Assembly: GCF_000729995.1 (NCBI RefSeq)
Contig: NZ_JNFG01000214.1
Location: 124,001-188,000, forward strand
Direction: 5' to 3'
DNA length: 64,000 bases
From: Caballeronia sordidicola
Lineage (GTDB): Bacteria > Pseudomonadota > Gammaproteobacteria > Burkholderiales > Burkholderiaceae
Under the pieces are notes generated by a model that saw nothing but the letters and a program-made list of their open reading frames with translations, was not told the DNA's origin and ran no database searches. Made by a program: the position numbers and the translations under genes. Shown piece by piece: positions 25,616 through 57,061 of this stretch (the stretch's first letter is position 1; each line of letters begins with the position of its first letter).

Positions 25616-25634
25616 TAAATCACGTTGTGATACA
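25616..25634. promoter_or_regulatory. Type B dyad TAAATCAC-GTT-GTGATACA
   Basis: Nineteen-bp inverted repeat of the class found at nine promoters in the 41.9-57.1 kb region, here between nnrS and the FMN-binding-like gene. Arms separated by 3 nt as in all other copies. It lies about 190 nt upstream of the first usable start of the downstream gene. Confidence 0.6.
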
Positions 25635-25684
25635 TAGACGCGCCTGCAGTAGTGAGACGCTGTTGATAACGGATCGATACCGAC

Positions 25685-25698
25685 TTGACATAGGTCAA
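25685..25698. promoter_or_regulatory. FNR/DNR-type box TTGAC-ATAG-GTCAA
   Basis: Perfect 14-bp dyad of the FNR/CRP class (TTGAC-N4-GTCAA), 70 nt after the type B dyad. The FNR-type regulator encoded at 37894 keeps the E-x-x-S-R recognition helix expected to read such a site. Confidence 0.6.
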
Positions 25699-25803
25699 AC
25701 GAAGGTACCCGGTACGGAGCGAAGCTACGACCATTGATGAGACACAACCGGCTTCGCGCGGCAAGGAGACACATCCACGGATGCGAAGCTGAAACAGCTC
25801 ATA

Positions 25804-26280
25804 TTGGAGATCATCGAAACAGGACGTGATCTGTCTCTGGCAACGCTGCGCGAGGACGGCTATCCTCAAGCCAATGCGATCGGTTACGCCAACGATAGCC
25901 TGACTCTCTTCTTCGGCACGGCGCGCACCAGTCAAAAAATCAAAAATATTCTGCGATGCAGCAAAGTATCGCTGACCATCAACATGGAATACAACGATTG
26001 GGAACAGATCAGAGGTCTTTCCATGGCTGCGACTGCGCACATACTGGCAGATGATTCGCCAGAACGTGCGCGTGCGACGGACCGGCTCCTCGCGCGTTTC
26101 CCAACAGCATGGGACATGTCACCTCCCGCCGAGCCAGGCCAAGTTGTCTTCGTCAAGCTCGTGCCAATCGTCGTCAGTGTGATCGACTACGCGCGAGGTT
26201 TTGGTTACAGCGAACTTGTCGAAATATGCGCAGGTGACCTGCCTGGCAAAGCGCCCGAATCTGGAGCGTGCGTGAACTGA
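25804..26280 (+). CDS. Pyridoxamine 5'-phosphate oxidase-like FMN-binding protein
   Basis: About 158 residues of the split-barrel flavin or haem-binding fold: LSLATLREDGYPQANAIGYA, LFFGTARTSQKIKNI, then VSLTINMEYNDWEQIRGLSM and the C-terminal VVFVKLVPIVVSVIDYARGFGYSE. The start is a problem. An AAGGAG ribosome site at 25763-25768 is followed in frame by ACA-TCC-ACG with no ATG or GTG, and the first usable codon is TTG at 25804. Upstream the frame is closed by TGA at 25738. Either the TTG is used or the native start codon has been lost. The promoter carries both a type B dyad and an FNR-type box, so expression under low oxygen is expected. Confidence 0.75.
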   Translation: MEIIETGRDLSLATLREDGYPQANAIGYANDSLTLFFGTARTSQKIKNILRCSKVSLTINMEYNDWEQIRGLSMAATAHILADDSPERARATDRLLARFPTAWDMSPPAEPGQVVFVKLVPIVVSVIDYARGFGYSELVEICAGDLPGKAPESGACVN

Positions 26281-26465
26281 AGCAGGATCCTTTTCGCAAT
26301 ACGAACCAAAAATGCATTACTGAAGAAGGACAAAACGTCACCCTCCTTTTTAGGCACGTTTTTCCGTAGTCCCTTCAAACGGGGCTATTGGCACCATAAA
26401 GATTCACAATAAATGCATATTTTCTGCATAAACGTCACGCAAATCGAACGTTAGGAGTAGATCGG
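26281..26465. promoter_or_regulatory. narG promoter region with ATGCA/TGCAT dyad
   Basis: Non-coding 185 nt before narG. It holds an inverted repeat ATGCA-N7-TGCAT (26413-26429) and a separate AATGCATT palindrome (26311-26318), recalling the ATGCAT core of the nnrS dyad. I see no full TTGAT-N4-ATCAA site. An AGGAG ribosome site sits just before the narG ATG. Confidence 0.4.
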
Positions 26466-29400
26466 ATGAGCCATTTTGTTGATCGCCTGAAATACTTCTC
26501 CACGTCGAGGCCGACCTTCTCGGAAGGTCATGGAATGACGACCGATGAAGATCGCGGGTGGGAAGATGCCTACCGGCAGCGCTGGCAGCATGACAAGATC
26601 GTGCGCTCCACTCACGGCGTTAATTGCACCGGTTCGTGTTCCTGGAAGATCTACGTCAAAAGCGGGATCGTCACCTGGGAAACCCAGCAAACCGATTATC
26701 CGCGCACCCGCCCTGATATGCCGAATCACGAACCGCGTGGCTGTGCGCGGGGTGCGTCGTATTCGTGGTACCTCTACAGCGCGAACCGCCTTAAATATCC
26801 GCTGATACGCAGCGCACTGCTTAGGCAGTGGCGCGAAAAACGACTGACGCTAGAACCGGTGCAAGCATGGAGCGCTATCGTCGATGACCAGGAGGCCCGT
26901 GCCTCGTACACGCGTCGCCGTGGCCTGGGTGGCTTCGTTCGCTCAAACTGGGACGAAGTCAACGAGATCATCGCGGCGGCGAACATCCACACGATTAAAC
27001 GGCATGGTCCGGACCGGATAGTTGGCTTTTCGCCGATACCGGCCATGTCGATGGTGTCCTACGCCGCCGGCAGCCGCTATCTCTCATTGATCGGGGGCGT
27101 AAACCTGAGCTTCTACGATTGGTACTGCGACTTGCCGCCCGCCTCGCCGCAAACCTGGGGCGAGCAGACCGACGTTCCCGAATCGGCCGACTGGTACAAC
27201 TCGACCTTCATCATGATGTGGGGGTCCAACGTACCGCAAACGCGTACCCCCGACGCGCACTTCATGACCGAAGTTCGGTATCGCGGCACCAAAGTCGTGT
27301 CGATCTTCCCGGACTATGCCGAAGGCGCCAAGTTCGGCGACATCTGGCTGCACCCGAAGCAAGGCACCGATGCTGCGCTTGGTCTTGCCATGGGCCATGT
27401 CGTGCTCACGGAGTTCCACGTTGCCGGCAAGAGCGCGTATTTCGCGGACTACTGCCGACGCTTTACCGACATGCCGCTCCTCGTGCGCATCGTCAAACAG
27501 GGCGAGCACTTTGTGCCGGAGCGCCTGCTGAGATCGGACGAGTTCGAAGACGCATTGGGTCAAGATAGCAACGCCGCATGGAAAACAGTGGCCATCGACG
27601 AATTGAGCGGAAAGCTCGTGACACCAGTGGGATCGATCGGGTTTCGCTGGGGCCAAAAGGAAGGTGGCGATGCCGGCAAATGGAATCTGAAAGAAGAGGA
27701 CGCACAAGGCGCACCAATTCGCCCGGTGATGTCGTTTGTCGAGGATCACCATGCGGTGATCGAGGTCACCTTCCCGTATTTCGGCAATGTAGAACATACG
27801 CACTTTACGCATACAGGCCATGCCAGCGTATTGCCGCGCCGCGTCGGTGTACGTAAGGTTGCGACCCGCGACGGCGACGTGCTCGTCGCCACGGTATATG
27901 ACCTGTTCATCGCCAACTATGGTGTGGACCAGGGCCTGGGCGGCGCCAATGTGGCGGCCAGCTTCGACGACGACGTACCCTATACCCCAGCCTGGCAGGA
28001 GAAAATTACGGGCGTCAAGCGCAATGAGGTCATCGCCGTTGCGCGCGAATTCGCCGACAACGCCCACAAGACCGAGGGCAAATCGATGGTGATCCTCGGC
28101 GCTGGCTTGAACCACTGGTTCAACATGGACATGAGCTATCGTTCGATCATCAACCTGCTTGTCATGTGCGGGTGCGTCGGCAAATCGGGTGGCGGCTGGT
28201 CTCACTATGTTGGCCAGGAAAAGCTTCGTCCGCAAACGGGATGGTTGCCGCTTGCGTTCGCAACCGACTGGCACAGGCCGCCGCGCTTCATGAACGGGAC
28301 CTCATTTTTCTACGCGCATACGGATCAGTGGCGCTATGAAACCATGAAGGTTACCGAGTTGCTGTCGCCGCTGGTCGATGGCAGCCAGTTTCCCGAGAGC
28401 CCGATCGATTACAACGTCCGGGCCGAGCGCATGGGCTGGTTGCCCTCCGCACCGCAGTTCAAGACCAATCCGCTTGAGCTCGGCCGGGCGGCAGCCGGGT
28501 CGGATGCCGCCGCCTACGTCGCGAAGGGACTCAAGGACGGCTCGCTTGAAATGTCATGCGTGGACCCCGACGCACCGGAAAACTTCCCGAGGAACCTGTT
28601 TGTCTGGCGCTCGAACCTGCTCGGCTCGTCGGGCAAAGGACACGAGTATTTCCTTAAGCATTTGCTCGGTGCCGAGCACGGCGTGCAGGGAAAAGACCTG
28701 GGCGCAAGCGCCGGGATCTTGCCCAAAGAAGTAAAATGGCACGATCAAGCGCCGCAGGGCAAGCTCGACCTGGTCGTGACACTCGACTTCAGAATGTCGA
28801 CCACGTGCCTCTATTCGGACATCGTTCTGCCGACTGCGACCTGGTACGAAAAGGACGACATGAACACGTCCGACATGCATCCGTTCATCCATCCGCTGTC
28901 GGCCGCCGTCGATCCTGCGTGGCAGTCCAAGAGCGATTGGGAAATCTACAAGGGCATCGCGCAGAAATTCTCTGAATTAACCGTTGGTCATCTGGGCATA
29001 GAACACGATGTGGTGCTCTCGCCGCTTCAGCATGACAGCCCCGGGGAAATCGCACAAACCGATGGGGTCGCCGACTGGGGCCACAATGAATGCGAGCCCA
29101 TTCCAGGCAAGACCATGGCGAGCGTCGTGACCGTCGAGCGGGATTATCCCAATACCTATCGAAAATTTACGTCTGTGGGGCCGCTTCTGGATTCACTCGG
29201 CAACGGCGGCAAGGGCATCACATGGCAAACCGGCGAAGAAATCGATCAACTTCGCGCACTGAATTATGCCGTCACTGATGAAGGCGTGTCGCACGGACGT
29301 CCCCAGATTCTTTCGGCAATCAATGCTGCCGAAGTGATTCTGTCGCTGGCTCCCGAAACCAACGGCGCGGTCGCGGTCAAGGCCTGGCAAGCTCTGTCGG

Positions 29401-30302
29401 CACTCACCGGCACCGACCACACTCATCTCGCGCGCGCACGTGAAGACGAGAAAATCCGCTTTCGCGATATTCAGGCGCAGCCGCGCAAGATTATTTCGTC
29501 GCCAACATGGAGTGGGATTGAATCCGAGCATGTCTCATACAGCGCAAGCTATACGAACGTGCATGAACTGATTCCATGGCGCACCCTTTCGGGACGTCAA
29601 CAGCTCTATCAGGATCACGCGTGGATGCGTGATTTTGGCGAGTCGCTCTGCGTCTACAAACCACCGATTGATACACGCAGTACGGTGGGCATGGAAGGTA
29701 GCCGCTCGAATGGCAACCTCGAAATAGCATTGAATTTTCTGACGCCGCATCAGAAATGGGGCATTCATAGCACCTACACCGACAATCTGCTGATGCTGAC
29801 GCTCTCGCGCGGCGGCCCCATCGTCTGGATCTCCGAGATCGATGCGAGAAAAATTGGCGTGGTTGATAACGACTGGATCGAAGCCTTCAATGTGAACGGA
29901 GCGCTGACAGCCCGCGCAGTCGTGAGCCAGCGTATTCCCGTGGGCGCCGTCATGATGTATCACGCGCAGGAAAAGATCATTAACACGCCCGGGTCCGAAG
30001 TCACCGGCGTACGCGGAATTCACAATTCGGTCACGCGCATCATGCCGAAGCCGACCCATATGATCGGCGGCTACGCGCAGCTCTCCTACGGCTTCAATTA
30101 TTACGGCACGGTCGGCTCCAATCGCGACGAATTTGTGATCGTACGCAAAATGAACACAGTCGATTGGAAGGATGAGTCGACGCCGTCGTCGGTGCTGTCG
30201 TCAGCAGAGGCCGCCCGTCACCAACACACCCTCGCCCATGGCGCCCCCACGCTTGCGATGGCCAACGCGACGGTCGACGATGAGTCAGGAGATAAAAAAT
30301 GA
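26466..30302 (+). CDS. narG: Respiratory nitrate reductase alpha subunit
   Basis: Catalytic molybdenum subunit that reduces nitrate to nitrite on the cytoplasmic face of the inner membrane; 1278 residues, normal for NarG. The N-terminal FS0 cluster ligands are His and Cys in HGVNCTGSCSWKIYVKSG, with the fourth in EPRGCARG. The segment YDWYCDLPPASPQTWGEQTD contains the aspartate that ligates molybdenum. Further bis-MGD contacts such as FIMMWGSNVPQTRTPDAHF are intact. No Tat signal processing is expected; like E. coli NarG it stays cytoplasmic. First gene of a tight narGHJI operon; its stop overlaps narH by 4 nt (ATGA). Confidence 0.98.
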   Translation: MSHFVDRLKYFSTSRPTFSEGHGMTTDEDRGWEDAYRQRWQHDKIVRSTHGVNCTGSCSWKIYVKSGIVTWETQQTDYPRTRPDMPNHEPRGCARGASYSWYLYSANRLKYPLIRSALLRQWREKRLTLEPVQAWSAIVDDQEARASYTRRRGLGGFVRSNWDEVNEIIAAANIHTIKRHGPDRIVGFSPIPAMSMVSYAAGSRYLSLIGGVNLSFYDWYCDLPPASPQTWGEQTDVPESADWYNSTFIMMWGSNVPQTRTPDAHFMTEVRYRGTKVVSIFPDYAEGAKFGDIWLHPKQGTDAALGLAMGHVVLTEFHVAGKSAYFADYCRRFTDMPLLVRIVKQGEHFVPERLLRSDEFEDALGQDSNAAWKTVAIDELSGKLVTPVGSIGFRWGQKEGGDAGKWNLKEEDAQGAPIRPVMSFVEDHHAVIEVTFPYFGNVEHTHFTHTGHASVLPRRVGVRKVATRDGDVLVATVYDLFIANYGVDQGLGGANVAASFDDDVPYTPAWQEKITGVKRNEVIAVAREFADNAHKTEGKSMVILGAGLNHWFNMDMSYRSIINLLVMCGCVGKSGGGWSHYVGQEKLRPQTGWLPLAFATDWHRPPRFMNGTSFFYAHTDQWRYETMKVTELLSPLVDGSQFPESPIDYNVRAERMGWLPSAPQFKTNPLELGRAAAGSDAAAYVAKGLKDGSLEMSCVDPDAPENFPRNLFVWRSNLLGSSGKGHEYFLKHLLGAEHGVQGKDLGASAGILPKEVKWHDQAPQGKLDLVVTLDFRMSTTCLYSDIVLPTATWYEKDDMNTSDMHPFIHPLSAAVDPAWQSKSDWEIYKGIAQKFSELTVGHLGIEHDVVLSPLQHDSPGEIAQTDGVADWGHNECEPIPGKTMASVVTVERDYPNTYRKFTSVGPLLDSLGNGGKGITWQTGEEIDQLRALNYAVTDEGVSHGRPQILSAINAAEVILSLAPETNGAVAVKAWQALSALTGTDHTHLARAREDEKIRFRDIQAQPRKIISSPTWSGIESEHVSYSASYTNVHELIPWRTLSGRQQLYQDHAWMRDFGESLCVYKPPIDTRSTVGMEGSRSNGNLEIALNFLTPHQKWGIHSTYTDNLLMLTLSRGGPIVWISEIDARKIGVVDNDWIEAFNVNGALTARAVVSQRIPVGAVMMYHAQEKIINTPGSEVTGVRGIHNSVTRIMPKPTHMIGGYAQLSYGFNYYGTVGSNRDEFVIVRKMNTVDWKDESTPSSVLSSAEAARHQHTLAHGAPTLAMANATVDDESGDKK

Positions 30303-31840
30303 AAATCCGCGCTCAGATCGGCATGGTCATGAATCTGGATAAATGCATCGGCTGCCATACGTGTTCGGTCACTTGCAAAAACGTCTGGACCTCGCGCGAA
30401 GGGATGGAATACGCGTGGTTCAACAATGTCGAGACCAAGCCCGGCATTGGTTATCCGAAGGACTGGGAAAACCAGGATCGCTGGAACGGTGGGTGGAAGC
30501 GCAAGACAAACGGCAAGATCGAGCTTCGCGCCGGTAGCAAGTGGCGTGTGCTCGCGACTATTTTCGGCAACCCGAACCTGCCGGAAATCGACGACTACTA
30601 TGAGCCGTTCACCTTCGACTACGCGCATTTGCACGACGCGCCGGACGTCAAGGTTGGACCGGTTGCCCGGCCCCGATCGCTGATCACCGGCGAGCGGATG
30701 GAGAAAATCGAGTGGGGCCCGAACTGGGAGGAAATTCTCGGCGGCGAATTCGAAAAGCGTAAGCAGGACTACAACTTTGACCAGGTGCAAACGGACATCT
30801 ATGGGGAGTTCGAGAACACCTTCATGATGTATCTGCCGCGACTCTGCGAACATTGCCTTAACCCTGCCTGCGTCGCGTCCTGTCCTTCCGGCGCGATTTA
30901 CAAGCGCGAGGAAGACGGCATCGTCCTGATCGATCAGGACAAGTGCCGAGGCTGGCGCATGTGCGTGTCGGGATGTCCATACAAGAAAATCTACTACAAC
31001 TGGCAAAGCGGCAAGTCAGAGAAGTGCATCTTCTGCTATCCGCGCATTGAGGCGGGCCAGCCAACGGTATGCTCGGAAACCTGCGTCGGGCGAATCCGCT
31101 ACCTCGGCGTCCTGCTGTATGACGCCGACCGCATCCAGGAAGCTGCGTCGGTTGAAGATCCACAGGATCTGTACGAAGCACAGCTTTCCATCTTCCTCGA
31201 TCCAAACGATCCGGCCGTGCGTGAGCAGGCCACTCGCGATGGCGTGCCGGACAACTGGCTTGAAGCAGCGCGTCATTCACCGGTGTACAAAATGGCGATG
31301 GAGTGGAAGATCGCCTTCCCGCTGCACCCCGAATACCGGACCTTGCCGATGGTCTGGTATGTCCCTCCCCTGTCGCCCATCAACTCAGCGACCAACGACG
31401 GCCGCCTCGGCATGAAGGGACTGCTCCCCGATGTCGATTCGTTGCGCATCCCCCTGCGTTACCTGGCCAACTTGCTGACGGCGGGACGCGAAGCGCCCGT
31501 GCGCCTCGCACTCAAGCGAATGCTCGCCATGCGCGCATTCATGCGCGAGCGCCACGTAGAGCGTCGTGAAAGTCCGGAACTGCTCGCTGAGGTCGATCTG
31601 AGCACCGCGCAAGTTGACGAGATGTATCGCTATCTTGCGATCGCCAATTACGAGGACCGCTTTGTCATCCCGACGGCGCATCGCGAATATGCCGAGGATG
31701 CTTTCGACCTGCGCGCATCGTGTGGCTTCTCGTTCGGCAATGGATGTTCAGATGGTACGACTGAAACCAGCTTGTTTGGCGGCCGCAAGGGCATCGGCAA
31801 GGATCGAAAGACAATTCCAATTCGTGCGGCGGGTGAGTAA
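30299..31840 (+). CDS. narH: Respiratory nitrate reductase beta subunit
   Basis: Iron-sulfur electron-transfer subunit, 513 residues. Four cysteine groups are visible: CIGCHTCSVTC near the N-terminus, CEHCLNPACVASC, CRGWRMCVSGC, and CIFC with CSETC later. The Trp in CRGWRMC replaces a cysteine, as in E. coli NarH, giving one 3Fe-4S and three 4Fe-4S clusters. The start overlaps the narG stop (ATGA) and the stop overlaps the narJ start by one base (TAATG), so the subunits are translationally coupled. Confidence 0.98.
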   Translation: MKIRAQIGMVMNLDKCIGCHTCSVTCKNVWTSREGMEYAWFNNVETKPGIGYPKDWENQDRWNGGWKRKTNGKIELRAGSKWRVLATIFGNPNLPEIDDYYEPFTFDYAHLHDAPDVKVGPVARPRSLITGERMEKIEWGPNWEEILGGEFEKRKQDYNFDQVQTDIYGEFENTFMMYLPRLCEHCLNPACVASCPSGAIYKREEDGIVLIDQDKCRGWRMCVSGCPYKKIYYNWQSGKSEKCIFCYPRIEAGQPTVCSETCVGRIRYLGVLLYDADRIQEAASVEDPQDLYEAQLSIFLDPNDPAVREQATRDGVPDNWLEAARHSPVYKMAMEWKIAFPLHPEYRTLPMVWYVPPLSPINSATNDGRLGMKGLLPDVDSLRIPLRYLANLLTAGREAPVRLALKRMLAMRAFMRERHVERRESPELLAEVDLSTAQVDEMYRYLAIANYEDRFVIPTAHREYAEDAFDLRASCGFSFGNGCSDGTTETSLFGGRKGIGKDRKTIPIRAAGE

Positions 31841-32520
31841 TGGACAACAACGGACCGATTTTCAGCATGTTGAGCGCGCTGCTCGACTATCCGGATGAAT
31901 CTCTCGTTGAGGGACTGGCCGAGATTCGTACGTCAATGGCACGGCATCGAGCCTTTACACCCGCCACACGTGACGCGTTGATCGCGCTGGTGGACCAGTT
32001 GGCGTCGCGACCCCTGCTGGACCTGCAGGAAGACTATGTTGAAACGTTTGATCGAGGCCGGGCAATGTCCCTTTACCTGTTCGAACACGTCCATGGCGAG
32101 TCACGCGAGCGGGGACAAGCCATGGTCGATTTACTTGCGATGTACGAAGCAAAAGAGCTGTTTCTCGGCGGAGGCGAGTTGCCTGACTATCTGCCCGTCT
32201 TCCTGGAATTTCTCGCACACGAAACACCCGCAAAGGCGCGGTCGCTGCTGGCTGAAATCGCCGACATCAACCGGCAAATTGCGACGAAGCTCGCCGAGCG
32301 CGGTAGCGCTTACTTCGCGGTGGTGGCCGCCTTGCTGCCGCTCGCAGGCGAGGCGCCGCTGGACGTCACGGCGCCCGCGCACGTAGCGGACTCGGAGATC
32401 GATGGCGAAGCGCTCGATCGCGAGTGGCAGGACACACCCGTCAGTTTCCTGGGCGCGCAAGCCCCTGTTTCAACGCAGCCTCAGCCTATCCAGTTTCATG
32501 AAAAACGACCACCGCGATAG
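31840..32520 (+). CDS. narJ: Nitrate reductase molybdenum cofactor assembly chaperone
   Basis: Cytoplasmic chaperone that holds NarG during insertion of the molybdenum cofactor and membrane docking; 226 residues, typical for NarJ. The all-helical TorD-like fold is suggested by the N-terminal FSMLSALLDYPDESLVEGL, the conserved LQEDYVETFDRGRAMSLYLF segment followed by EHVHGESRERGQAMVDLL, and ELPDYLPVFLEFLAH. The C-terminal tail is variable as usual. It overlaps narH by one base and is followed by a hairpin before narI. Confidence 0.96.
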   Translation: MDNNGPIFSMLSALLDYPDESLVEGLAEIRTSMARHRAFTPATRDALIALVDQLASRPLLDLQEDYVETFDRGRAMSLYLFEHVHGESRERGQAMVDLLAMYEAKELFLGGGELPDYLPVFLEFLAHETPAKARSLLAEIADINRQIATKLAERGSAYFAVVAALLPLAGEAPLDVTAPAHVADSEIDGEALDREWQDTPVSFLGAQAPVSTQPQPIQFHEKRPPR

Positions 32521-32536
32521 TCCCGCAAAGCGGGAC
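32520..32536 (+). other. Hairpin between narJ and narI
   Basis: GTCCCGC-AAA-GCGGGAC forms a perfect 7-bp stem with a 3-nt loop immediately at the narJ stop. No U-tract follows, so it is more likely an mRNA processing or stabilising stem that adjusts subunit ratios than a terminator. Confidence 0.5.
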
Positions 32537-32574
32537 ACCGTGTTCAAAAGCATGATTCTCGTTGGAGATGCCTC

Positions 32575-33258
32575 ATGAGTCAGCACTTCATCAATTCGCT
32601 TTTGTTTGGCATTTATCCCTATATCTGCCTCGCGATCTGGCTGCTTGGCAGCCTGATCCGTTTCGATCGGGAACAGTACACCTGGAAGAGCGATTCCTCG
32701 CAACTGCTCAGACGGCGGCAACTACGCCTGGGGAGCAATCTGTTTCACATCGGTGTACTGATCGTCATTGGTGGCCATTTTGCTGGTTTTCTGGCGCCGC
32801 ATTGGATGGTGTCGCCGTTTCTGAACGCCTCGCAGCATCAATTCATTGCGATGGCTGCAGGCGGGAGTGCTGGCATCGTTGCAATTATCGGGTTATCCAT
32901 TCTGCTGTATCGACGGCTGTCGGACCCGCGAATTCGCATCAACAGCGCGCATGCGGATATTCTGGTCCTGGTCATATTGTGGTTGCAGCTTGCGCTCGGA
33001 CTGTCCACCGTCCCGCTTTCATTGGCTCACATGGATGGGCTCATGTTCGAAACGCTGAGCACCTATGTCAAGGGAATCGTCACGTTCCAATCCGTCGCCA
33101 ATCTCATTGCTCCGGTGCCGCTCGTCTACAAAATCCATATCGTGCTGGGCTTTACGATCTTCCTCATTTCTCCCTTCACGCGTCTTGTTCATATCTGGAG
33201 TGGCATGGCAACCGTAGCCTATTTGTTTCGGCCGCACCAGATCGTGCGTAAGCGCTAA
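32575..33258 (+). CDS. narI: Respiratory nitrate reductase gamma subunit (cytochrome b)
   Basis: Membrane dihaem cytochrome that oxidises quinol and passes electrons to NarH; 227 residues with five transmembrane helices. Haem-ligating histidines lie in FHIGVLIVIGGHFAG and in VYKIHIVLGF with FTRLVHIWSG. The conserved start FGIYPYICLAIWLLGSLIRF and the DREQYTWKS loop match the family. It ends 15 nt before the parvulin gene. Confidence 0.97.
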   Translation: MSQHFINSLLFGIYPYICLAIWLLGSLIRFDREQYTWKSDSSQLLRRRQLRLGSNLFHIGVLIVIGGHFAGFLAPHWMVSPFLNASQHQFIAMAAGGSAGIVAIIGLSILLYRRLSDPRIRINSAHADILVLVILWLQLALGLSTVPLSLAHMDGLMFETLSTYVKGIVTFQSVANLIAPVPLVYKIHIVLGFTIFLISPFTRLVHIWSGMATVAYLFRPHQIVRKR

Positions 33259-37893: not shown

Positions 37894-38628
37894 TCAGATG
37901 TGCTCGAGTCCGCCCCGGTCGACAATGTTTATCTGCTTGCCGCGCACCTCGATCAAGCTGGCCTTCTGGAAATTTGAAAAGGAGCGGCTAACCGTTTCAA
38001 GCTGTAAGCCTAGGTAGCTGCCCATTTCGTCACGTGTCATACGAAGGTGGAATTCCGCCGGCGAATAGCCGGCGCGCTGCAGCCGCGCAGAGATGTTCAG
38101 CAGAAATGCCGCGAGCCGTTCGTCGGCATTCATGGTGGCAAGCATCATCAGCAGACCCGCCTCCCGAACGATCTCCGCACTCATGATTCTATGCACGTGA
38201 CGCTGTACGGAAGCGACTTCCCTGCACAGCAGTTCGATCAACTCGAACGGCATGATACAGACGAGGCTGTCTTCCAGTGCGATTACGTCACAAGCATACT
38301 GGTCCGCACATATTCCGTCAGCTCCGAGTGTCTCGCCGACGAGATGGAAGGCGGTGACGTGATCCCGACCATCCCGATGCGCAACCATAGACTTGAACGA
38401 GCCGGCCCGAACTGAATAGAGGCTCCTGAAGATGTCACCCATACGATACAAGGGCTGGCCGCGCCTGACTGAGCGGAAGCGCCGGATCGCGGGGCCGAGC
38501 TTGTCAAAATCAGCCCGGTCGATACCGGCCGGTATGCAAAGATGGTGCAGCGCGCACCCTGAACACGGAGACGATGCGGTGCGTCGCCCGCGTTCTTGGG
38601 CGAATATGCCCGAACTCCCCTTGGCCAA
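37894..38628 (-). CDS. fnr: FNR/Anr-type oxygen-sensing transcription regulator
   Basis: CRP-family regulator, 244 residues. The N-terminal cysteines Cys22, Cys25 and Cys31 (PCSGCALHHLC) plus one of two cysteines near 107-112 (GICADQYAC) match the 4Fe-4S ligands of FNR. The cyclic-nucleotide-like beta-roll is followed by the HTH MTRDEMGSYLGLQLETVSRSF, which keeps the E-x-x-S-R recognition residues of FNR. It should therefore bind TTGAT/C-N4-A/GTCAA boxes, such as the one at 25685. It lies at the end of the nar block and is a natural activator for it under low oxygen. Confidence 0.93.
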   Translation of the reverse strand: MAKGSSGIFAQERGRRTASSPCSGCALHHLCIPAGIDRADFDKLGPAIRRFRSVRRGQPLYRMGDIFRSLYSVRAGSFKSMVAHRDGRDHVTAFHLVGETLGADGICADQYACDVIALEDSLVCIMPFELIELLCREVASVQRHVHRIMSAEIVREAGLLMMLATMNADERLAAFLLNISARLQRAGYSPAEFHLRMTRDEMGSYLGLQLETVSRSFSNFQKASLIEVRGKQINIVDRGGLEHI

Positions 38629-42928: not shown

Positions 42929-42947
42929 TATATCACTCCATGATACA
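42929..42947. promoter_or_regulatory. Type B dyad TATATCAC-TCC-ATGATACA at the marR promoter
   Basis: Nineteen-bp inverted repeat ending 34 nt before the GTG start of the MarR gene. Its position over the promoter suggests autoregulation and is the reason to link the type B sites with this regulator. Confidence 0.65.
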
Positions 42948-42981: not shown

Positions 42982-43395
42982 GTGAAAGAAGCTATTCGCT
43001 CGCTGAGCAAGGAAGACTTTGCCCAACTGTCCGAGTTTCGCTACCAGATGCGGCGATTCGAGCGGTTCTCCGAGCAAGCTGCTCAGGACGAAGGCATTAC
43101 TCCGCTGCAGTATTTGCTGTTGTTGCATATCAAGGGTTATCCGGACCGCGATTGGGCAACGGTAGGCGAACTGGCTGAGCGCCTTCAGGCACATCACCAC
43201 GGCGTCGTTGCGCTCGTGTCGCGGTGTGAAGCGCTGGATCTGGTTAAGAGAAAGCCTAGTGAAATTGATCGCCGCCAGGTCGAGGTTCATCTGCTGAAAC
43301 CCGGAGAGAACATCCTCTCGCGGCTAGCCGAATTGCATCGGGCAGAACTGAAGTCGCTCGCAGGGACCTTCCGCGTTCCGCAGGTCGATCTTTAA
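42982..43395 (+). CDS. MarR-family transcriptional regulator
   Basis: 137 residues from GTG at 42982 (VKEAIRSLSKEDF). Earlier in-frame starts (ATG at 42940, which lies inside the dyad, or further up) would place the type B dyad within the gene and are less likely. The winged helix-turn-helix is complete: LQYLLLLHIKGYPDRDWATV, GELAERLQAHHHGVVALVSR, LDLVKRKPSEIDRRQVEVHL. It has no signalling cysteine in the style of OhrR. Nine other copies of the dyad at its own promoter occur in the window, so it is the best candidate for the regulator of the stress island. Confidence 0.85.
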   Translation: MKEAIRSLSKEDFAQLSEFRYQMRRFERFSEQAAQDEGITPLQYLLLLHIKGYPDRDWATVGELAERLQAHHHGVVALVSRCEALDLVKRKPSEIDRRQVEVHLLKPGENILSRLAELHRAELKSLAGTFRVPQVDL

Positions 43396-43445: not shown

Positions 43446-45257
43446 GTGCACGAAAACGCTTCACGAGGTGATTTTGCAGCGAATGCTCATCTGCCGCGCA
43501 TCACGGCCATTGCGGTAGTAATCGGCGCGTTGAGCACGGTGACGGCCTATGTCCTGCTCCACCTGATCAATTTCTTCACCAACCTTTTCTTCTTCCAGTC
43601 CCTGTCGTTCGAGAATCACTCGCCCGCGGAAAATACCCTCGGTCTTTGGGTGATCGTGATTCCCGTGATCGGTGGCCTGGTGATCGGACTGATCGCGCGC
43701 TATGGCAGCGAAGCCATCCGCGGACACGGCATTCCTGAAGCGATCGAAGCCATCCTGTTCGGCAAGAGCAAGATGTCGCCGAAGGTCGCGGTGCTCAAAC
43801 CGCTTTCCTCCGCGATCGCCATCGGCAGCGGCGGCCCGTTCGGTGCGGAAGGGCCGATCATCATGACGGGCGGCGCAATCGGCTCGCTGCTCGCACAGTA
43901 TTTCCACCTGACCGCCGGTGAACGCAAGACGCTGCTCGTCGCCGGCGCCGTAGCCGGAATGACGGCGGTGTTCGGTACGCCTGTCGCGGCGGTCCTGCTC
44001 GCGGTCGAACTGCTGCTGTTCGAACTGCGCCCGCGTAGCCTGTTGCCCGTTGCGGTGGCATGCGCGGTGGCTGGGTTCACGCGCCCCCTGCTGATCGGCA
44101 GCGGCGCCCTCTTCCCGTTGCAAACCCTCCCACTGGGTCCGCTCGGCCTGATTTCATGCGTGGTCGCAGGGCTCGTGGCCGGGGCCATGTCCTGGGGTTT
44201 GTCGTCGGCGCTATACAAGGTCGAGGACCTCTTCGGCAAATTGCCGATTCACTGGATGTGGTGGCCGGCGCTGGGCGGCATTGCTGTCGGCATAGGCGGA
44301 TATTTTGAGCCGCGTGCGCTCGGCGTAGGCTATGACGTCATCGGCGATCTGCTGCATAACCATCTTGCAGTAAGCGTCGTGGTCGGTTTGATACTGGTGA
44401 AGGCGATCATGTGGGTCATCGCCCTCGGTTCCGGCACATCGGGAGGCGTACTCGCTCCGCTGCTGATGATGGGCGCGGCCATGGGAACCATCTTTGGACC
44501 GTTCTTGCCTGGCGGGGAACCCGCAGTATGGCCGCTGGTATTCATGGCGGCGACGCTCGGCGGGATGATGCGCGCCCCGATCATGGCAACCGTGTTCGCG
44601 TTCGAACTTACCCATGACGCCAACGTACTGTTGCCCCTGCTCATGGCGTCGGCTGTCGCATACGGGTTCACCGTGCTGCTGATGCGGCGCTCCATCCTGA
44701 CCGAGAAGATCGCGCGCCGCGGTTATCACATCTATCGGGAATACGGCATCGATCCTCTTGAACGCCATTTCGTTGAAGAGGTGATGACGCGCAAAGTCGA
44801 GACGATTGATGCGGATATGCCGGTCGCCGAGGTGCTCGCAAAATACTTTGGTGAGAAGCAAATCCATCGCGCGTTTCCGGTGACACGAGACGGCGCGTTG
44901 GTAGGAATGATCGAGCGTGACGGATTTATCGCGCGAACCGGCAATCCAGCCATCCATGTCATGAGCGACCTGTTCGGCGCAAACACACCCATCATGGCGT
45001 TGCCCGGGGAAACCTGCAGGATCGCGTCCAACCGACTGGCCGTGCATGGACTCGAGCGCTTGCCCGTGGTGTCGGATCCGCAGTCGCGTCATCTCGTGGG
45101 CTTGATAAGCCGTAGCGATCTGGTGAAACCGTCGCTCGCTTTCTTCGAAGAAGAGGAACATCGCGAGATGTTCCGGCGCTCTCCCCTGCACCATCTGAAA
45201 AAACGGTTTGCACCGGTGCCCAGGCATCAAGATGAAGCAACCCGCGAGCGCCCGTAG
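43446..45257 (+). CDS. ClC-type chloride/proton protein with CBS domains
   Basis: 603 residues from GTG at 43446, preceded by CAGGAG. The ClC membrane domain (about 1-430) has GHGIPEAI (93-100, where E. coli ClcA has GSGIP), IGSGGPFGAEGPIIMTGGAIG with the gating Glu135, and FELRPRS with the internal proton glutamate conserved. A pair of CBS domains follows (VEEVMTRKVETIDADMP and LPVVSDPQSRHLVGLISRSD). The replaced selectivity-filter serine means anion preference is not certain. It follows the MarR gene by 50 nt and precedes cysM by 65 nt. Confidence 0.92.
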   Translation: MHENASRGDFAANAHLPRITAIAVVIGALSTVTAYVLLHLINFFTNLFFFQSLSFENHSPAENTLGLWVIVIPVIGGLVIGLIARYGSEAIRGHGIPEAIEAILFGKSKMSPKVAVLKPLSSAIAIGSGGPFGAEGPIIMTGGAIGSLLAQYFHLTAGERKTLLVAGAVAGMTAVFGTPVAAVLLAVELLLFELRPRSLLPVAVACAVAGFTRPLLIGSGALFPLQTLPLGPLGLISCVVAGLVAGAMSWGLSSALYKVEDLFGKLPIHWMWWPALGGIAVGIGGYFEPRALGVGYDVIGDLLHNHLAVSVVVGLILVKAIMWVIALGSGTSGGVLAPLLMMGAAMGTIFGPFLPGGEPAVWPLVFMAATLGGMMRAPIMATVFAFELTHDANVLLPLLMASAVAYGFTVLLMRRSILTEKIARRGYHIYREYGIDPLERHFVEEVMTRKVETIDADMPVAEVLAKYFGEKQIHRAFPVTRDGALVGMIERDGFIARTGNPAIHVMSDLFGANTPIMALPGETCRIASNRLAVHGLERLPVVSDPQSRHLVGLISRSDLVKPSLAFFEEEEHREMFRRSPLHHLKKRFAPVPRHQDEATRERP

Positions 45258-45322: not shown

Positions 45323-46225
45323 ATGTCTTACAAAACCATCGAAGACACCATCGGCAACACGCCGCTGGTCCAACTCCAGCGCATCCCTGATGACGACATA
45401 GCCAGGCGGGGCACCGTGATCCTCGGCAAGCTCGAGGGACACAACCCCGCCGGCTCGGTGAAGGACCGACCCGCACTGTCGATGATCAAGCACGCGGAAG
45501 CCCGTGGGCACATCAAGCCGGGCGACACATTGATCGAATCCACGAGCGGCAATACGGGTATCGCGCTCGCCATGGTGGCGGCAATCCGCGGCTACAAGAT
45601 GGTCCTGATCACGCCGGAAGATATCTCGGTGGAACGCCGCCAAAGCATGGCGGCCTTCGGCGCGCAAATAATCCTGACGCCGGCAACCGGCGGAATGGAA
45701 TACGCTCGCGATCTGGCCGAAAAAAAGCAACGGGAGGGCCAGGGCGTGATCCTCGACCAGTTCGCCAATCCCGACAATCCGTTGGCTCACTACGAGACCA
45801 CCGGACCCGAGATCTGGCGGGACACGGCGGGACGCATCACCCATTTCGTCTCCGCGATGGGGACCACCGGCACGATCATGGGTGTATCGCGATTTCTGAA
45901 GGAACAGAGCAGGAGCGTGGAAATTGTCGGCGTGCAGCCGGAGGATGGTTCCCGCATTCCCGGCATCCGTAGGTGGCCGGAATCGCATACGCCAAGGATT
46001 TTCGAGCGAAGCCGCCTAGATCGGATCGAGACCGTGAGCCAGGCGGCCTCAGAAGCGATGGTGCAACGCCTGGCTGCCGAAGAAGGCATCTTTTGCGGCG
46101 TCTCGGCAGCGGGTGCATGCGAAGTTGCTTTGCGGATCGCCCGTCAGGTTGACGATGCGACGATCGTTTTCGTCGTGTGCGATCGCGGTGACCGCTATTT
46201 GTCGACGGGATTATTTCCCGCGTAG
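45323..46225 (+). CDS. cysM: Cysteine synthase B
   Basis: PLP enzyme making cysteine from O-acetylserine with sulfide or thiosulfate; about 300 residues. PLP-binding Lys lies in NPAGSVKDRPALSMI. The phosphate-binding loop is STSGNTGIALAMVAA and the second Gly-rich loop is VSAMGTTGTIMGVSRF, as in CysM. The C-terminal FCGVSAAGACEVALRIA is typical. The ATG at 45323 (MSYKTIEDT) is preferred. Sulfur assimilation in a stress island may support glutathione or iron-sulfur repair. Confidence 0.93.
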   Translation: MSYKTIEDTIGNTPLVQLQRIPDDDIARRGTVILGKLEGHNPAGSVKDRPALSMIKHAEARGHIKPGDTLIESTSGNTGIALAMVAAIRGYKMVLITPEDISVERRQSMAAFGAQIILTPATGGMEYARDLAEKKQREGQGVILDQFANPDNPLAHYETTGPEIWRDTAGRITHFVSAMGTTGTIMGVSRFLKEQSRSVEIVGVQPEDGSRIPGIRRWPESHTPRIFERSRLDRIETVSQAASEAMVQRLAAEEGIFCGVSAAGACEVALRIARQVDDATIVFVVCDRGDRYLSTGLFPA

Positions 46226-46330: not shown

Positions 46331-46349
46331 TATATCACATAGTGATATA
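46331..46349. promoter_or_regulatory. Type B dyad, near-perfect TATATCAC-ATA-GTGATATA
   Basis: The best copy in the window: both 8-nt arms are exact complements. It lies 56 nt before the first DUF1840 gene. Confidence 0.75.
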
Positions 46350-46404: not shown

Positions 46405-46725
46405 ATGTTGATCACATTCAAATCGCGCGCATCACCCGATGTTTTGATGCTTGCCGATCTTGCAAATTACCTTCTTGGTATCGTTGGGAAACGACTTGGT
46501 CCGCGTGGGGTTATCGCGCGCGATGAGCTACCAGATGTCATTGGCCGGATGGAAGATGCCATCGCGGAAGACCAGAGAACTTCTGATGCACACGATGAGA
46601 TGCACTATGGAACACAAGCGGGTGTACACGAGCGCAGCGCAGGACTGGCACAACGCGCTTATCCTTTTTTGGACATGCTTCGTGAAGCTCAAAAGCAGGA
46701 CGCAGACATTATCTGGGGTCTGTAG
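46405..46725 (+). CDS. DUF1840 protein (paralogue 1)
   Basis: 106 residues, preceded by AGGAGGTGG. The domain spans the protein: MLITFKSRASPDVLMLADLA, NYLLGIVGKRLGPRGVIARD, then GLAQRAYPFLDMLREAQKQD and a conserved end ADIIWGL. It is a small soluble protein of unknown function found widely in betaproteobacteria. The paralogue at 55821 is about 65 percent identical by eye. Directly downstream of the strongest type B dyad, so probably a core member of the regulon. Confidence 0.88.
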   Translation: MLITFKSRASPDVLMLADLANYLLGIVGKRLGPRGVIARDELPDVIGRMEDAIAEDQRTSDAHDEMHYGTQAGVHERSAGLAQRAYPFLDMLREAQKQDADIIWGL

Positions 46726-47052: not shown

Positions 47053-48258
47053 CTAGCGATACATGTACCTTCGCGACCATGCGAGCGAATCGTCCCGCCG
47101 TCCGGCTTTCTGACATACGACCTGATAGATCGAGAGTCGATCCTGCTGAAAAGCGTGTGCGCATCCGGCGAGGTAGATGCGCCAGACTCGGAACGTTGCT
47201 TCTCCTGCGAGATCCTTAATCGATGGCGTGCTTCGTTCAAACGCATCCGTCCATGCGCCTAAAGTGCGTGCATAGTGTCGTCGCAGGTTTTCCACGTCGA
47301 GCGTTTCCAGGCCGCCTCGCTGCATTGCTTCGAGTACTTGGCCGATATGCGATAGTTCTCCGTTTGGAAAGACGTACTTGTCCATAAACCCACTGCCATC
47401 GACGGCCGGTGACCAGGCGATATCAGGGTCGGTCGACGTAATGCCGTGATTCATGGCGATTCCCTCTACTGTCAGCAACGCGGCGATTCGTGCAAAGTAC
47501 ACGGGAAGATTGGCACGGCCCACGTGTTCGAACATTCCTACGCTCGTGACGCGATCAAACTGGCCGTCAATATCGCGATAATCCTGGAGTCGAATTTCCA
47601 CCTGAGTGGCAAGGCCTGCTTGTTTTACCTGCTCAGTGGCGAAAGCGTACTGCTTCTCGGACAGCGTAATGCCGACGCATCGCGCGCCAAACTTTTCCGC
47701 AGCACGTATTACTAGTGTCCCCCAACCGCATCCGATATCGAGCAGCGTTTGTCCGGGTTGCAATGCGATCTTTCTGAGAATGTGATCTATCTTCTTCTCT
47801 TGAGCCGTGTCGAGATCTTCGGCGCCGTTTTCGAAATACGCGCATGAATACACCATCGTGCGACCAAGCCACAGGCGATAGAAGGCATCCGACACGTCAT
47901 AGTGAAACTGAATCGCCTGCTTATCGGATTTCCTCGTACGGTTGAACTGCTTGAAGTTCGCGAGGCGACTCGCAGGCGCGGCTTGCTTTCGTGCCAAGGC
48001 ATAGGCAACTGCAATGACATCCGGCAAACGTCCATCGATGTCTATCTCGTTGTTCACGTAGGCTTGCGCAAGCCCGTCTAGCGTCGGGCGGCGCAAGCGC
48101 CGCAGTGCGGACGCTTGCCTGATGTTCAGGGTGACCTGGGGCTCGCCGGAATGACCTACATTGAATGCTCGCCCATTCCACAAAACAAGTCGCGCTGGAA
48201 CCGGAACGAGTTTGCTTACGTCAGCAAGCCACGACTCAAGTTTATCTTGCCAGAACAT
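47053..48258 (-). CDS. cfa: Cyclopropane-fatty-acyl-phospholipid synthase
   Basis: Adds a methylene bridge from S-adenosylmethionine across double bonds of membrane phospholipids, a stationary-phase and acid-stress response. 401 residues. The SAM site is LLDIGCGWGTLVIRAAEKFG, followed by GITLSEKQYAFATEQ and DRVTSVGMFEHVGRANLPVY. The bicarbonate and lipid site residues fall in NNEIDIDGRLPDV and the C-terminal FRVWRIYLAGCAHAFQ. The upstream region carries a large dyad with a type B core (48433-48471). Confidence 0.94.
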   Translation of the reverse strand: MFWQDKLESWLADVSKLVPVPARLVLWNGRAFNVGHSGEPQVTLNIRQASALRRLRRPTLDGLAQAYVNNEIDIDGRLPDVIAVAYALARKQAAPASRLANFKQFNRTRKSDKQAIQFHYDVSDAFYRLWLGRTMVYSCAYFENGAEDLDTAQEKKIDHILRKIALQPGQTLLDIGCGWGTLVIRAAEKFGARCVGITLSEKQYAFATEQVKQAGLATQVEIRLQDYRDIDGQFDRVTSVGMFEHVGRANLPVYFARIAALLTVEGIAMNHGITSTDPDIAWSPAVDGSGFMDKYVFPNGELSHIGQVLEAMQRGGLETLDVENLRRHYARTLGAWTDAFERSTPSIKDLAGEATFRVWRIYLAGCAHAFQQDRLSIYQVVCQKAGRRDDSLAWSRRYMYR

Positions 48259-48432: not shown

Positions 48433-48471
48433 GTATTCATTATATATCACAGCGTGATCTATAATGAATAC
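48433..48471. promoter_or_regulatory. Extended 39-bp dyad with a type B core
   Basis: The core TATATCAC-AGC-GTGATCTA (48443-48461) is flanked on both sides by GTATTCATTATA and its complement TATAATGAATAC, giving an almost perfect inverted repeat of 39 nt centred at 48452. It lies 175 nt upstream of cfa and about 490 nt before the next plus-strand gene. The extra flanking symmetry is not seen at the other sites. Confidence 0.65.
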
Positions 48472-50963: not shown

Positions 50964-50990
50964 GGACCGCCCCGCTCTGCTCATTCAGCG

Positions 50991-51757: not shown

Positions 51758-51776
51758 TATATCACTACATGATATA
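51758..51776. promoter_or_regulatory. Type B dyad TATATCAC-TAC-ATGATATA
   Basis: Nineteen-bp inverted repeat with one mismatch between its arms, about 126 nt upstream of the two-helix membrane protein gene (minus strand). Confidence 0.7.
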
Positions 51777-52020: not shown

Positions 52021-52039
52021 TGTATCGCGTTATGATATA
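52021..52039. promoter_or_regulatory. Type B dyad TGTATCGC-GTT-ATGATATA
   Basis: Less perfect copy, same 3-nt spacing, 216 nt upstream of the HiPIP gene on the plus strand. Confidence 0.55.
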
Positions 52040-52254: not shown

Positions 52255-52566
52255 ATGTCACTCTCCCGCCGGCATTTCATGATACTTGCCGCCTCCGTCG
52301 CATCGACAGCGGTTCTTTCCACTGAGTCGCGTGCCGACGCCCCGTTGCTTGCCGAGAACGATCCGACCGCACAGGCACTTGGCTACAAGATGGACGCGAC
52401 CAAAGTGGACAAACCAAAGTTCGCCCGGTACCAAGCTGGGCAGACTTGCGCCAATTGTCAGTTGTATCAGGGCAAGGCCGGCTCCGCAACGGGCCCCTGT
52501 CCAACCTACGGCGGCAAGCTGGTTTATGCAAAGGGATGGTGTAGCGCTTACGTGAAAAAGGCCTGA
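52255..52566 (+). CDS. High-potential iron-sulfur protein
   Basis: 103 residues. A twin-arginine style leader (MSLSRRHFMILAASVASTAV) precedes the mature electron carrier, which keeps the four cluster cysteines Cys65, Cys68, Cys82 and Cys96 with the C-x2-C-x13-C-x13-C spacing. The segment TCANCQLYQGKAG and the end YAKGWCSAYVKKA are family signatures. HiPIPs shuttle electrons from the bc1 complex to terminal reductases or oxidases. An AGGAG ribosome site is upstream. A role in low-oxygen respiration fits the neighbours. Confidence 0.93.
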   Translation: MSLSRRHFMILAASVASTAVLSTESRADAPLLAENDPTAQALGYKMDATKVDKPKFARYQAGQTCANCQLYQGKAGSATGPCPTYGGKLVYAKGWCSAYVKKA

Positions 52567-53358: not shown

Positions 53359-54585
53359 CTAGCGTAGGTCGCCGACTCCAAAAATCTCCGTGTGAATTCG
53401 CGAAATGTCGATGTGCAGTGCCTTCAATGCGTCGACCTGCGCACGCATGAACGGCATCGGCCCGCACACATAGTAGTCCGCGTCGCGAAGCAGAACGGCT
53501 TCGCGAATCTTCGCAAAGTCGAGGCGGCCGGTGAAATCGAAGTCTCTGTCCGGCACGTCGTTCGGGTCGACTTCTTCGTAGAAGGTGACCTTCGTCGCAT
53601 TCGGATGATCCGCAACAACGTCGTCGAGCCATTCGCAAAACGCGTGCACACGACGGTTGCGACAAGCGTGGAGGAAACTGACGCGGCGCGTGGCGGAATC
53701 CGTGACGATTGTCGCAAGCATGGAGATCATCGGAGTAATGCCGACACCGCCGCTCACGAGCACGACCGGTGTTCGCTTCGTGCGATCCAGGACAAAATCG
53801 CCATACGGCGCACTGACCTCGACATGTCCTCCAACATGCAGTTCGTCATGCAACAGGTTGGAGATTTGACCGGCCGGTTTTGTGATGTCTCCGTTGTCGG
53901 CTGCCTCGCGCTTCACGGAAATGCGCAGCCATTTTCCGTGCGGTGCATCCGACAGGCTGTATTGGCGCGGCTGTTCGAGACTGAGGTCGCCGACATAGCG
54001 CTTAATGCTAACGAACTGGCCCGGATCGAAGGGAGGAAGTTCCTTGCCGTCCGTTGGCACGAGATAGAACGATGAAATCTCCTCGCTTTCGTCAACCTTG
54101 CGCATGACCTCGAAGCGGCGCCAACCGATCCAGCCACCGGATTGCGTCGCACGCTGATCGTACAGCTCCCTTTCGGCGCCAATCATGACGTCAGCGAGTT
54201 CCTGGTAGGCGGCAGCCCAGGCGTCGCGCGTTTCCTCGTCGAAGGCATCGCCCAGGGTTTCGCTCATCGCTGCGAGCAAGTGCTTGCCCACGATGGGATA
54301 GTGCTCGGGCTGAACGCCCAGACTTGCGTGCTTCTGGGAGATGCGCCTGACGGTGGGCGCGAGCACGGCGAGATTATCGATGTTGGAGGCGTAAGCCCAA
54401 ACCGCATGCGCAAGGGCTTCCGACTGTCCGCCTGATCTCTGGTTGGCGTGGTTGAAGAGATTCCTCAACTCGGGATGATGTTCGAAGAGCCGGCAGTAGA
54501 ACCGAGTCACTACGGTCATTCCGTGCTCGCTGAGAACGCCGGCGCTCGACTTGATGATCTCGATCTGCCGTGGGGTCATGGCCAT
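53359..54585 (-). CDS. hmp: Flavohaemoglobin nitric oxide dioxygenase
   Basis: Converts nitric oxide and oxygen to nitrate using NAD(P)H. The ATG at 54585 (MAMTPRQIEIIKSSAGVLSE) has AAGGAG upstream and gives 408 residues, the standard length. Globin domain: distal Tyr30 (TRFYCRLF) and proximal His86 (ISQKHASLG). FAD domain: RQYSLSDAPHGKWLRIS. NAD domain: VSGGVGITPMISMLATIV, ending HTEIFGVGD. A type B dyad lies between it and the divergent gene at 54865. Together with NnrS it gives the organism protection from nitric oxide made during nitrate respiration. Confidence 0.96.
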   Translation of the reverse strand: MAMTPRQIEIIKSSAGVLSEHGMTVVTRFYCRLFEHHPELRNLFNHANQRSGGQSEALAHAVWAYASNIDNLAVLAPTVRRISQKHASLGVQPEHYPIVGKHLLAAMSETLGDAFDEETRDAWAAAYQELADVMIGAERELYDQRATQSGGWIGWRRFEVMRKVDESEEISSFYLVPTDGKELPPFDPGQFVSIKRYVGDLSLEQPRQYSLSDAPHGKWLRISVKREAADNGDITKPAGQISNLLHDELHVGGHVEVSAPYGDFVLDRTKRTPVVLVSGGVGITPMISMLATIVTDSATRRVSFLHACRNRRVHAFCEWLDDVVADHPNATKVTFYEEVDPNDVPDRDFDFTGRLDFAKIREAVLLRDADYYVCGPMPFMRAQVDALKALHIDISRIHTEIFGVGDLR

Positions 54586-54712: not shown

Positions 54713-54731
54713 TGTTTCACATTGTGATACA
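54713..54731. promoter_or_regulatory. Type B dyad TGTTTCAC-ATT-GTGATACA
   Basis: Nineteen-bp inverted repeat in the divergent region between hmp and the small gene at 54865, 128 and 134 nt from the respective starts. Confidence 0.65.
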
Positions 54732-55613: not shown

Positions 55614-55632
55614 TACATCATGTTATGATATA
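55614..55632. promoter_or_regulatory. Type B dyad TACATCAT-GTT-ATGATATA
   Basis: Nineteen-bp inverted repeat, 189 nt before the second DUF1840 gene. Both DUF1840 paralogues therefore have the same element upstream. Confidence 0.65.
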
Positions 55633-56270: not shown

Positions 56271-56420
56271 CGGCTATGCGCCGCGGTGCGAGCGGCTCTC
56301 GGGAGAGCTGCAGCTCGAGTTGCGCAGCGTGATAGCCGAACTGCCGTTACCCTGTGTCTGAAAGGAGCGACAACGACGCAGCCGGCGTCGTATCCGTCAA
56401 CGTCCGTTTTCCATCCGGTC

Positions 56421-56555
56421 TCACCGATGCCGGCGGTGTACGGTCTGGGAATCCTGATTCCGTCGGTGGGGCTTGCGATCCAGGGCCAAAATGAAAAGAA
56501 CCAGCATCGCAAGTATTACGGCCACAACAACAAGTTGTACTAGCAAATCCATCAT
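56421..56555 (-). CDS. Tiny single-helix membrane protein (MxDLLV type, copy 2)
   Basis: 44 residues: MMDLLVQLVVVAVILAMLVL, then FILALDRKPHRRNQDSQTVH and RRHR. The ATG has GGAGG 6-10 nt upstream. It matches copy 1 at 50991 in the first 20 residues and in design: one helix, then a basic tail. It lies next to another small membrane protein gene on the same strand. Confidence 0.6.
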   Translation of the reverse strand: MMDLLVQLVVVAVILAMLVLFILALDRKPHRRNQDSQTVHRRHR

Positions 56556-56615
56556 TGCCGCCTCCGTTTCCGTCTTGGTTACCTCTGCCTTCGTCGCCCT
56601 TTCGATCCGGACGGC

Positions 56616-56795
56616 CTAGCCCACTGACGCACAACCACTAGCTTTGCCGTTTCCGTCAATAACGTCTGTCCCGGTGCGCGACACGCGACCGTTCAATAGT
56701 GCGTTCCACGGGAAAAAGCGCGGCCAGCCCAAACCGATTGCGGCAAAGACGAACAATGAGAGCAAGAACAGCACCCAGTAAAAGTCGATATTCAC
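56616..56795 (-). CDS. Small single-helix membrane protein
   Basis: 59 residues from GTG at 56795 (VNIDFYWVLFLLSLFVFAAI), with AAGGAG upstream. A strongly hydrophobic helix is followed by GLGWPRFFPWNALLNGRVSR, TGTDVIDGNGK. The aromatic-rich interface region suggests a membrane partner protein. No family name recognised. It is 60 nt upstream of the MxDLLV gene on the same strand, so the two form a mini operon. A type B dyad lies 248 nt upstream. Confidence 0.55.
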   Translation of the reverse strand: MNIDFYWVLFLLSLFVFAAIGLGWPRFFPWNALLNGRVSRTGTDVIDGNGKASGCASVG

Positions 56796-57042
56796 GGTGA
56801 TCTCCTTTCGTCCCCGACTCCATGGGGACATCCACAATTGCCCTACTTTTCCATCGTCCACCAGCGCGCGAACAGGCTATACGGTGATGCTCGATGACGA
56901 CCAGGCCGACCTTCACCGAACGGCGAGGCGGGAGATCTTCAACAGCTCATCCAACATGGCGACAACGCCGTCAGGGATCCCTGCTCTACGGCTGAATCGA
57001 CACCAGCATTGCCACTGATGGACGATCGATTCATTTTAACTA

Positions 57043-57061
57043 TATGTCACAGAGTGATGTA
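57043..57061. promoter_or_regulatory. Type B dyad TATGTCAC-AGA-GTGATGTA
   Basis: Nineteen-bp inverted repeat, the last of the series, between the minus-strand mini operon of small membrane proteins and the plus-strand chemoreceptor. Confidence 0.65.

Follow-up and report, generated by a model that had tools for sequence, protein, structure and literature searches.

What links the stress and nitrogen-oxide genes that carry the same inverted repeat in their promoters in Caballeronia sordidicola? The window analysed here is a 64,000-nt stretch of contig NZ_JNFG01000214.1 (assembly GCF_000729995.1, positions 124,001 to 188,000 of the forward strand), and its initial annotation proposed that ten copies of a 19-bp dyad between 25616 and 57061 belong to one regulon controlled by a MarR-family protein encoded among them. 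This proposal is supported by the intergenic placement of the strong sites, by a positional footprint in marR promoters and by co-occurrence of dyad and marR among genomes. Comparison of relatives indicates that the site is kept, recurs ahead of the same set of genes and goes together with marR. We consider it likely that a conserved MarR-family repressor, encoded at 42982–43395 and by a paralogue on contig 11 (C11), uses the dyad as its operator.

Dyad sites in the window and the genome

All ten dyads were recovered at the positions first described (25616 to 57043), each with a 3-nt spacer, and all are intergenic on the gene starts assigned here, with the assigned gene 35–281 bp away. The pattern TATATCAC-N3-GTGATATA has 10 window matches at up to 3 mismatches versus 0.04 expected (mean of 100 dinucleotide shuffles; maximum 1). 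Only the copy at 46331 is exact, the other nine deviating at 1–3 of the 16 arm positions. The consensus of the ten sites on both strands is TRTATCAY-N3-RTGATAYA, with a mirrored core in which the inner TC...GA and the outermost T...A are invariant.

The first dyad (25616..25634, + strand) lies between NnrS and the PNPOx-narGHJI genes, a layout repeated at C199:245428 on contig 199, and the second (41877..41895, +) lies ahead of genes for a 61-aa membrane protein and a universal stress protein (USP). The third (42929..42947, +) is 35 bp ahead of the marR start and is the proposed autoregulatory operator. Further copies precede DUF1840 gene A (46331..46349, +), cfa (48443..48461, −, at 185 bp), small membrane protein B (51758..51776, −; gene at 51450–51632), the high-potential iron-sulfur protein (HiPIP) gene (52021..52039, +), hmp (54713..54731, −, at 128 bp) and DUF1840 gene B (55614..55632, +; start about 55821). 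The last (57043..57061, +) is 281 bp ahead of an sCache_2 chemoreceptor gene (57342–58961), which is the weakest target assignment. The initial gene list is corrected in one entry, the 'flavin-binding-like' gene at 25616 being a PNPOx-type gene ahead of narGHJI.

The 10.26 Mb genome contains 21 matches at up to 3 mismatches versus 5 for the reversed pattern, and 11 versus 1 at up to 2 mismatches. The 11 strong matches comprise seven window sites and C11:116407, C11:119276, C11:122657 and C199:245428, and all 11 are intergenic by our own gene calls, in line with the promoter preference anticipated for a regulon. Seven 3-mismatch matches lie outside the window; three of the four inspected are inside long open reading frames (ORFs) and one is intergenic. 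On contig 11 one strong site separates a USP gene from an HPP-CBS gene and the other two precede the second marR and a DUF1840 gene, while that on contig 199 lies between NnrS and PNPOx-narG, so that dyads in this genome precede two narGHJI operons (window and contig 199). Window positions 42905–46730 are 92.7% identical to C11, and 24285–33075 (NnrS-PNPOx-nar) are 93% identical to the contig 199 copy (also locus L018), this region occurring twice in the genome. The outside sites at the second marR, DUF1840 and NnrS/PNPOx-narG are therefore not independent of those in the window. Assembly contamination is 5.85%, and the duplicated regions may be of mixed origin.

Conservation of the dyad with marR among relatives

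We examined 80 marR loci (the best 80 of 311 confirmed), in which the closest named relatives are Caballeronia. They contain 161 dyads at up to 2 mismatches, distributed over 75 of the 80 loci, whereas 150 palindromes with permuted arms averaged 0.26 (the highest count, 27, belonging to the near-cognate TACATCAT). As the initial annotation had anticipated, orthologous marR promoters keep the dyad: it is present at up to 4 mismatches, 47–62 bp before marR, in 73/80 loci, where its flanks are far less conserved than the dyad itself. Nearly all dyads (159/161) have a member of the recurring gene set starting within 450 bp, namely marR (62), HPP-CBS (44), USP (21), DUF1840 (16), the small membrane protein (10), ClcB (3) and Hmp, CysM and Cfa (1 each). 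With marR at the centre of every locus, a fair test has to look outside the core operon, where 31 of 32 dyads stand beside a member of the set versus 3.4% of random positions. In 75/80 loci clcB follows marR at no more than 1.2 kb. The targets are kept also without linked marR, since in all five Cupriavidus-like (g3) loci examined (L178–L182) the dyad stands between divergent HPP-CBS and ClcB genes with marR not adjoining; this and other '-like' genus labels are guesses. NarG was matched in one and HiPIP in none of the 80 loci, and nitrate respiration thus looks like a local recruit rather than a core part of the regulon. A dyad does precede a HiPIP-like gene in L051 and an Hmp gene in L188.

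The association extends beyond the family. The first out-of-family MarR test covered 8 of 17 dyad-holding genomes and was followed by the full order sample of 250 genomes. Of the 49 out-of-family genomes with a match, at most 30 loci were listed, and 27 marR upstream regions were taken from these; L206, L207 and L208, as duplicate genomes, were left out before counting. Picked by protein score alone, 21 of these 27 have the dyad (up to 3 mismatches) at a similar place, the MarR proteins being 59–70% identical. With the addition of L209 and L210, from genomes already known to hold the dyad, it is present in 23/29 loci, versus a mean of 0.05 (maximum 5) for permuted arms on the same 29. The 5' end of the dyad is located 79–114 bp before the LSxFRY codons and about 40–75 bp before the likely start where inspected. 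A DsrC-like gene (PF04358) is found near marR in 14 of the 29 loci (L209, L210, L232–L237, L242, L243, L246–L249), divergent where inspected, and a Yip1-like gene in five.

Dyad and marR also co-occur among whole genomes. In the genus (58 genomes, up to 2 mismatches) there are 137 dyads versus 22 controls, with at least one dyad in 47 of 51 genomes with MarR (E<=1e-20) and in none of the seven without. In the family sample (398 genomes, drawn automatically, as was the order sample) the dyad is present in 269/294 genomes with MarR, which hold 749 dyads versus 68 controls, as compared with 35/104 without; in the order sample (up to 1 mismatch) the numbers are 16/52 and 4/198. Related genomes share ancestry, which these tests ignore, so that they and their Fisher p values overstate the association and the positional footprint in 73/80 loci carries more weight.

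The MarR protein of the window (42982..43395, +, GTG start) has the winged-helix domain PF12802 (E 1e-12; 48.5 bits versus a cut-off of 27) and is 96% identical to its contig 11 paralogue; the ATG at 42877 is not the conserved start. Its best sequence match in the PDB is 2rdp, at only E 7e-7, and its best NCBIfam matches are far under cut-off. In an alignment of 24 MarR sequences Cys82 is nearly invariant and His49, 73, 103 and 119 are invariant. An apparent MarR-ClcB fusion in Burkholderia anthina (L145) was rejected; the long ORF is in another frame and marR has its own stop.

Repression model and alternative explanations

The gene-side arm GTGATATA often runs into a −10 box, with TATAAT at offset 15 (marR class) or 17 (USP class). 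Over 98 sites with ties left out, the gene side has the better −10 match at 68 and the far side at 15. A MarR dimer bound to TRTATCAY-N3-RTGATAYA would thus cover a −10 that overlaps or abuts the gene-side arm, and would be expected to repress. Use of this −10 would place the dyad centre near −18 to −20. Its putative targets are its own operon marR-clcB-cysM, the HPP-CBS transporter, the USPs with the 61-aa membrane protein, and DUF1840. To these this genome would add PNPOx-narGHJI, hmp, HiPIP and cfa. We propose that an effector or a redox change releases the protein. A role in nitrite transport has been discussed for HPP proteins, and ClC proteins are able to transport nitrate. The gene content points to low oxygen with nitrate, nitrite or nitric oxide (NO), or to a sulfur or redox signal, as the releasing condition, the latter being what the DsrC-like and Yip1-like neighbours point to. 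More speculatively, and with considerable doubt, the MarR-dyad pair could be an ancestral redox switch of Burkholderiales that gained anion transporters and USPs in Burkholderiaceae, works here alongside FNR as a second level of control on nitrate respiration and defence against NO, and senses a sulfur, nitrogen-oxide or redox signal via Cys82 or the histidines (49, 73, 103, 119).

Several observations weigh against MarR as the binder and repressor. Of the four strong sites that the genome has in addition to those of the window, three are duplicates. The dyad is missing in six of the 27 out-of-family loci (L239, L241, L244, L245, L252, L253). Within this genus only part of the expected conservation held: 12 of 30 marR loci have the dyad just before marR, but 18 have it (up to 4 mismatches) 1.2–1.45 kb upstream instead, approximately the position of the HPP-CBS promoter in labelled loci. 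The same applies to 17 marR loci from more distant family genomes picked by hand (22 genomes were chosen in this way). Eight have the dyad (L160, L163, L165, L169–L172, L175; ClcB next in seven) and nine lack it near marR (L159, L161, L162, L164, L166–L168, L174, and L173 with only a 4-mismatch copy at −187); in the Cupriavidus-like L164 and L166–L168, marR is located elsewhere without its own dyad. Of the 104 MarR-less family genomes 35 have a match (up to 2 mismatches), and the 104 together show a modest excess of 52 dyads versus 36 controls. Three dyads are present in genome G257, in two cases at HPP-CBS/ClcB and Hmp, and no MarR was found there at E<=1e-5; G262 (no MarR match) has one, and G190 and G314 (weak matches, E above 1e-8) have one and two. 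At HPP-CBS promoters the −10 preference is slight (gene side better at 16, opposite at 10) and matches of at least 5 of 6 positions are fewer on the gene side (16 versus 22), while at the nar dyads the gene-side −10 is poor (3–4 of 6) and is surpassed by that on the opposite side (5 of 6).

Some weak matches belong to another palindrome, TATAnCACnnnGTGnTATA, which resembles the dyad but is distinct from it. It occurs at L077 and L202, where it adjoins genes resembling HigA-type antitoxins (by eye), and also matches in G125, G278 and G382. It may inflate the dyad counts of MarR-less genomes.

Some of these points would fit another, more widespread regulator that binds the dyad and has marR as just one of its targets. 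G257 and other Cupriavidus-like genomes have perfect dyads at HPP-CBS/ClcB without linked or detected MarR, and nar, hmp and nnrS are classical targets of nitrogen-oxide regulators (in part after PMC1274295). We regard this as improbable, however. The dyad follows marR through many Burkholderiales families in which HPP, ClcB, USP and hmp are mostly absent within 1.5 kb (ClcB in 3 and HPP in 2 of the 29 out-of-family loci), none of the seven genus genomes without MarR has it at up to 2 mismatches, and it is unlike the NsrR, DNR/NnrR, HcpR and NorR motifs quoted in PMC1274295. A little less credible still is that MarR binds the dyad and activates, in a MerR-like manner, from between −35 and −10. 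The 98 sites showed no enrichment of −35 boxes upstream of the dyad-linked −10 boxes, as this would predict, but the dyad reaches up to or into the −10 itself, a −35 is dispensable in extended −10 promoters, and most MarR proteins studied are repressors. That the dyad is a repeat family or a mobile element with promoters, as several copies in one island and modules duplicated on C11 and C199 might suggest, can be practically dismissed, since sequence around the dyads is barely shared past dyad and −10, the same kinds of genes follow it in many genera, and the marR-promoter footprint in the 80 loci and the out-of-family loci contradicts it.

If MarR is indeed the repressor acting at the dyad, a large number of Burkholderiaceae genes for stress, nitrate and NO would come under one common regulator that can be tested and has a defined operator, specific enough for direct genome scans for the regulon. 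It would also be a candidate for what controls the persistence of these aerobes when oxygen is scarce. The pair of regulator and operator, retained from family to family as the targets change, would also be a good case of regulon evolution.

Island genes and comparison with known systems

The island encodes NnrS, PNPOx, narGHJI, a PPIase, an MFS transporter in the NarK position, a P450, an FNR-type gene, a sigma factor, a cupredoxin, DUF4142, USP, marR-clcB-cysM, two DUF1840 proteins, Cfa, HiPIP, Hmp and the sCache chemoreceptor. Its description as a stress and nitric-oxide island holds as far as it went, but had overlooked narGHJI and NnrS. The PNPOx-type flavoprotein ORF (25804..26280, +; PF01243) is the first gene past its dyad; the C199 copy starts 27 bp further upstream, with ATG where the window has ACG (25777–25779), an in-frame TTG being present at 25804. 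The respiratory nitrate reductase operon narGHJI (26466..33258, +) follows with narG (26466–30302), narH (30299–31840), narJ (31840–32520) and narI (32575–33258), the latter without an NCBIfam match and placed by position only. An FNR-like box, TTGACATAGGTCAA (25685..25698, +; 2 mismatches to TTGATNNNNATCAA), is located ~50 bp downstream of the nar dyad and is identical in both nar copies, and the nar promoter is probably under double control by FNR and the dyad regulator. The FNR-type gene (37894..38628, −) encodes a rival regulator and is not proposed as dyad binder; FNR was rejected in this role, as the dyad does not fit the FNR box.

The 61-aa membrane protein (41969..42154, +; paralogue 51450–51632, −) is conserved, contains two hydrophobic stretches, matches no Pfam family above cut-off and often follows a dyad (window copies; L053–L056, L059, L061, L068, L069). 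It is followed by the USP gene (42242..42739, +; PF00582). Downstream of marR are the ClcB-type chloride channel gene (43446..45257, +), probably in the same operon, the CysM-type cysteine synthase gene (45323..46225, +) and DUF1840 gene A (46405..46725, +; PF08895). The remaining targets are the cyclopropane fatty acid synthase gene cfa (47053..48258, −), HiPIP (52255..52566, +; PF01355) and the gene for the flavohaemoglobin Hmp, an NO dioxygenase (53359..54585, −). A short ABC-transporter ATPase piece (49648–49974) and a truncated-looking USP-like ORF (51184–51531; by eye) also lie in the island.

The initial exclusion of NsrR and FNR sites was borne out by the motifs quoted in PMC1274295. 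The CRP motif (TGTGA-N6-TCACA), also excluded initially, is unlike the dyad. Among the motifs in PMC1274295, the NsrR site (gATGyAT-N5-ATrCATc) differs in arms and spacer, and the FNR/DNR site (TTGAT-N4-ATCAA) differs from the dyad and is represented here by the separate box at 25685. NorR sites are tandem GT-N7-AC with a sigma-54 promoter, whereas here dyads are single and their arms unlike, a comparison made by site only, with sigma-54 promoters not searched. According to the same paper, the NsrR, NorR, DNR/NnrR and HcpR regulons share the target kinds hmp and nnrS with the regulon proposed here, but motifs and protein families differ. The low-oxygen-activated locus lxa of Burkholderia cenocepacia is a cluster with six USPs, as described in PMC6127331, PMC9104464, PMC3759415 and PMC9733578; the terms motif, MarR and palindrom have 0 occurrences in the main text of these four papers, and lxa is set apart here by its descriptions, not having itself been searched for the dyad. 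In B. cenocepacia H111 under micro-oxia, a flavohaemoprotein, a Cfa and USPs are listed in PMC3759415 with positive fold changes, and these are the same kinds of genes as the dyad targets here (orthology not compared). USPs are lower in anoxia in B. thailandensis (PMC3966863), which counts against a simple low-oxygen reading. A limited literature search gave no described regulon for the motif, none being known to the initial annotation either, and for the arm TATATCAC itself it gave only unrelated papers. With known autoregulated MarR-family repressors the system shares the winged-helix MarR domain (PF12802) and a palindrome in its own promoter, while differing from them in operator sequence, in its ClcB and HPP-CBS partners and in a regulon spanning nitrate respiration and USPs, and on sequence comparison it would represent a new regulon of a known regulator family.

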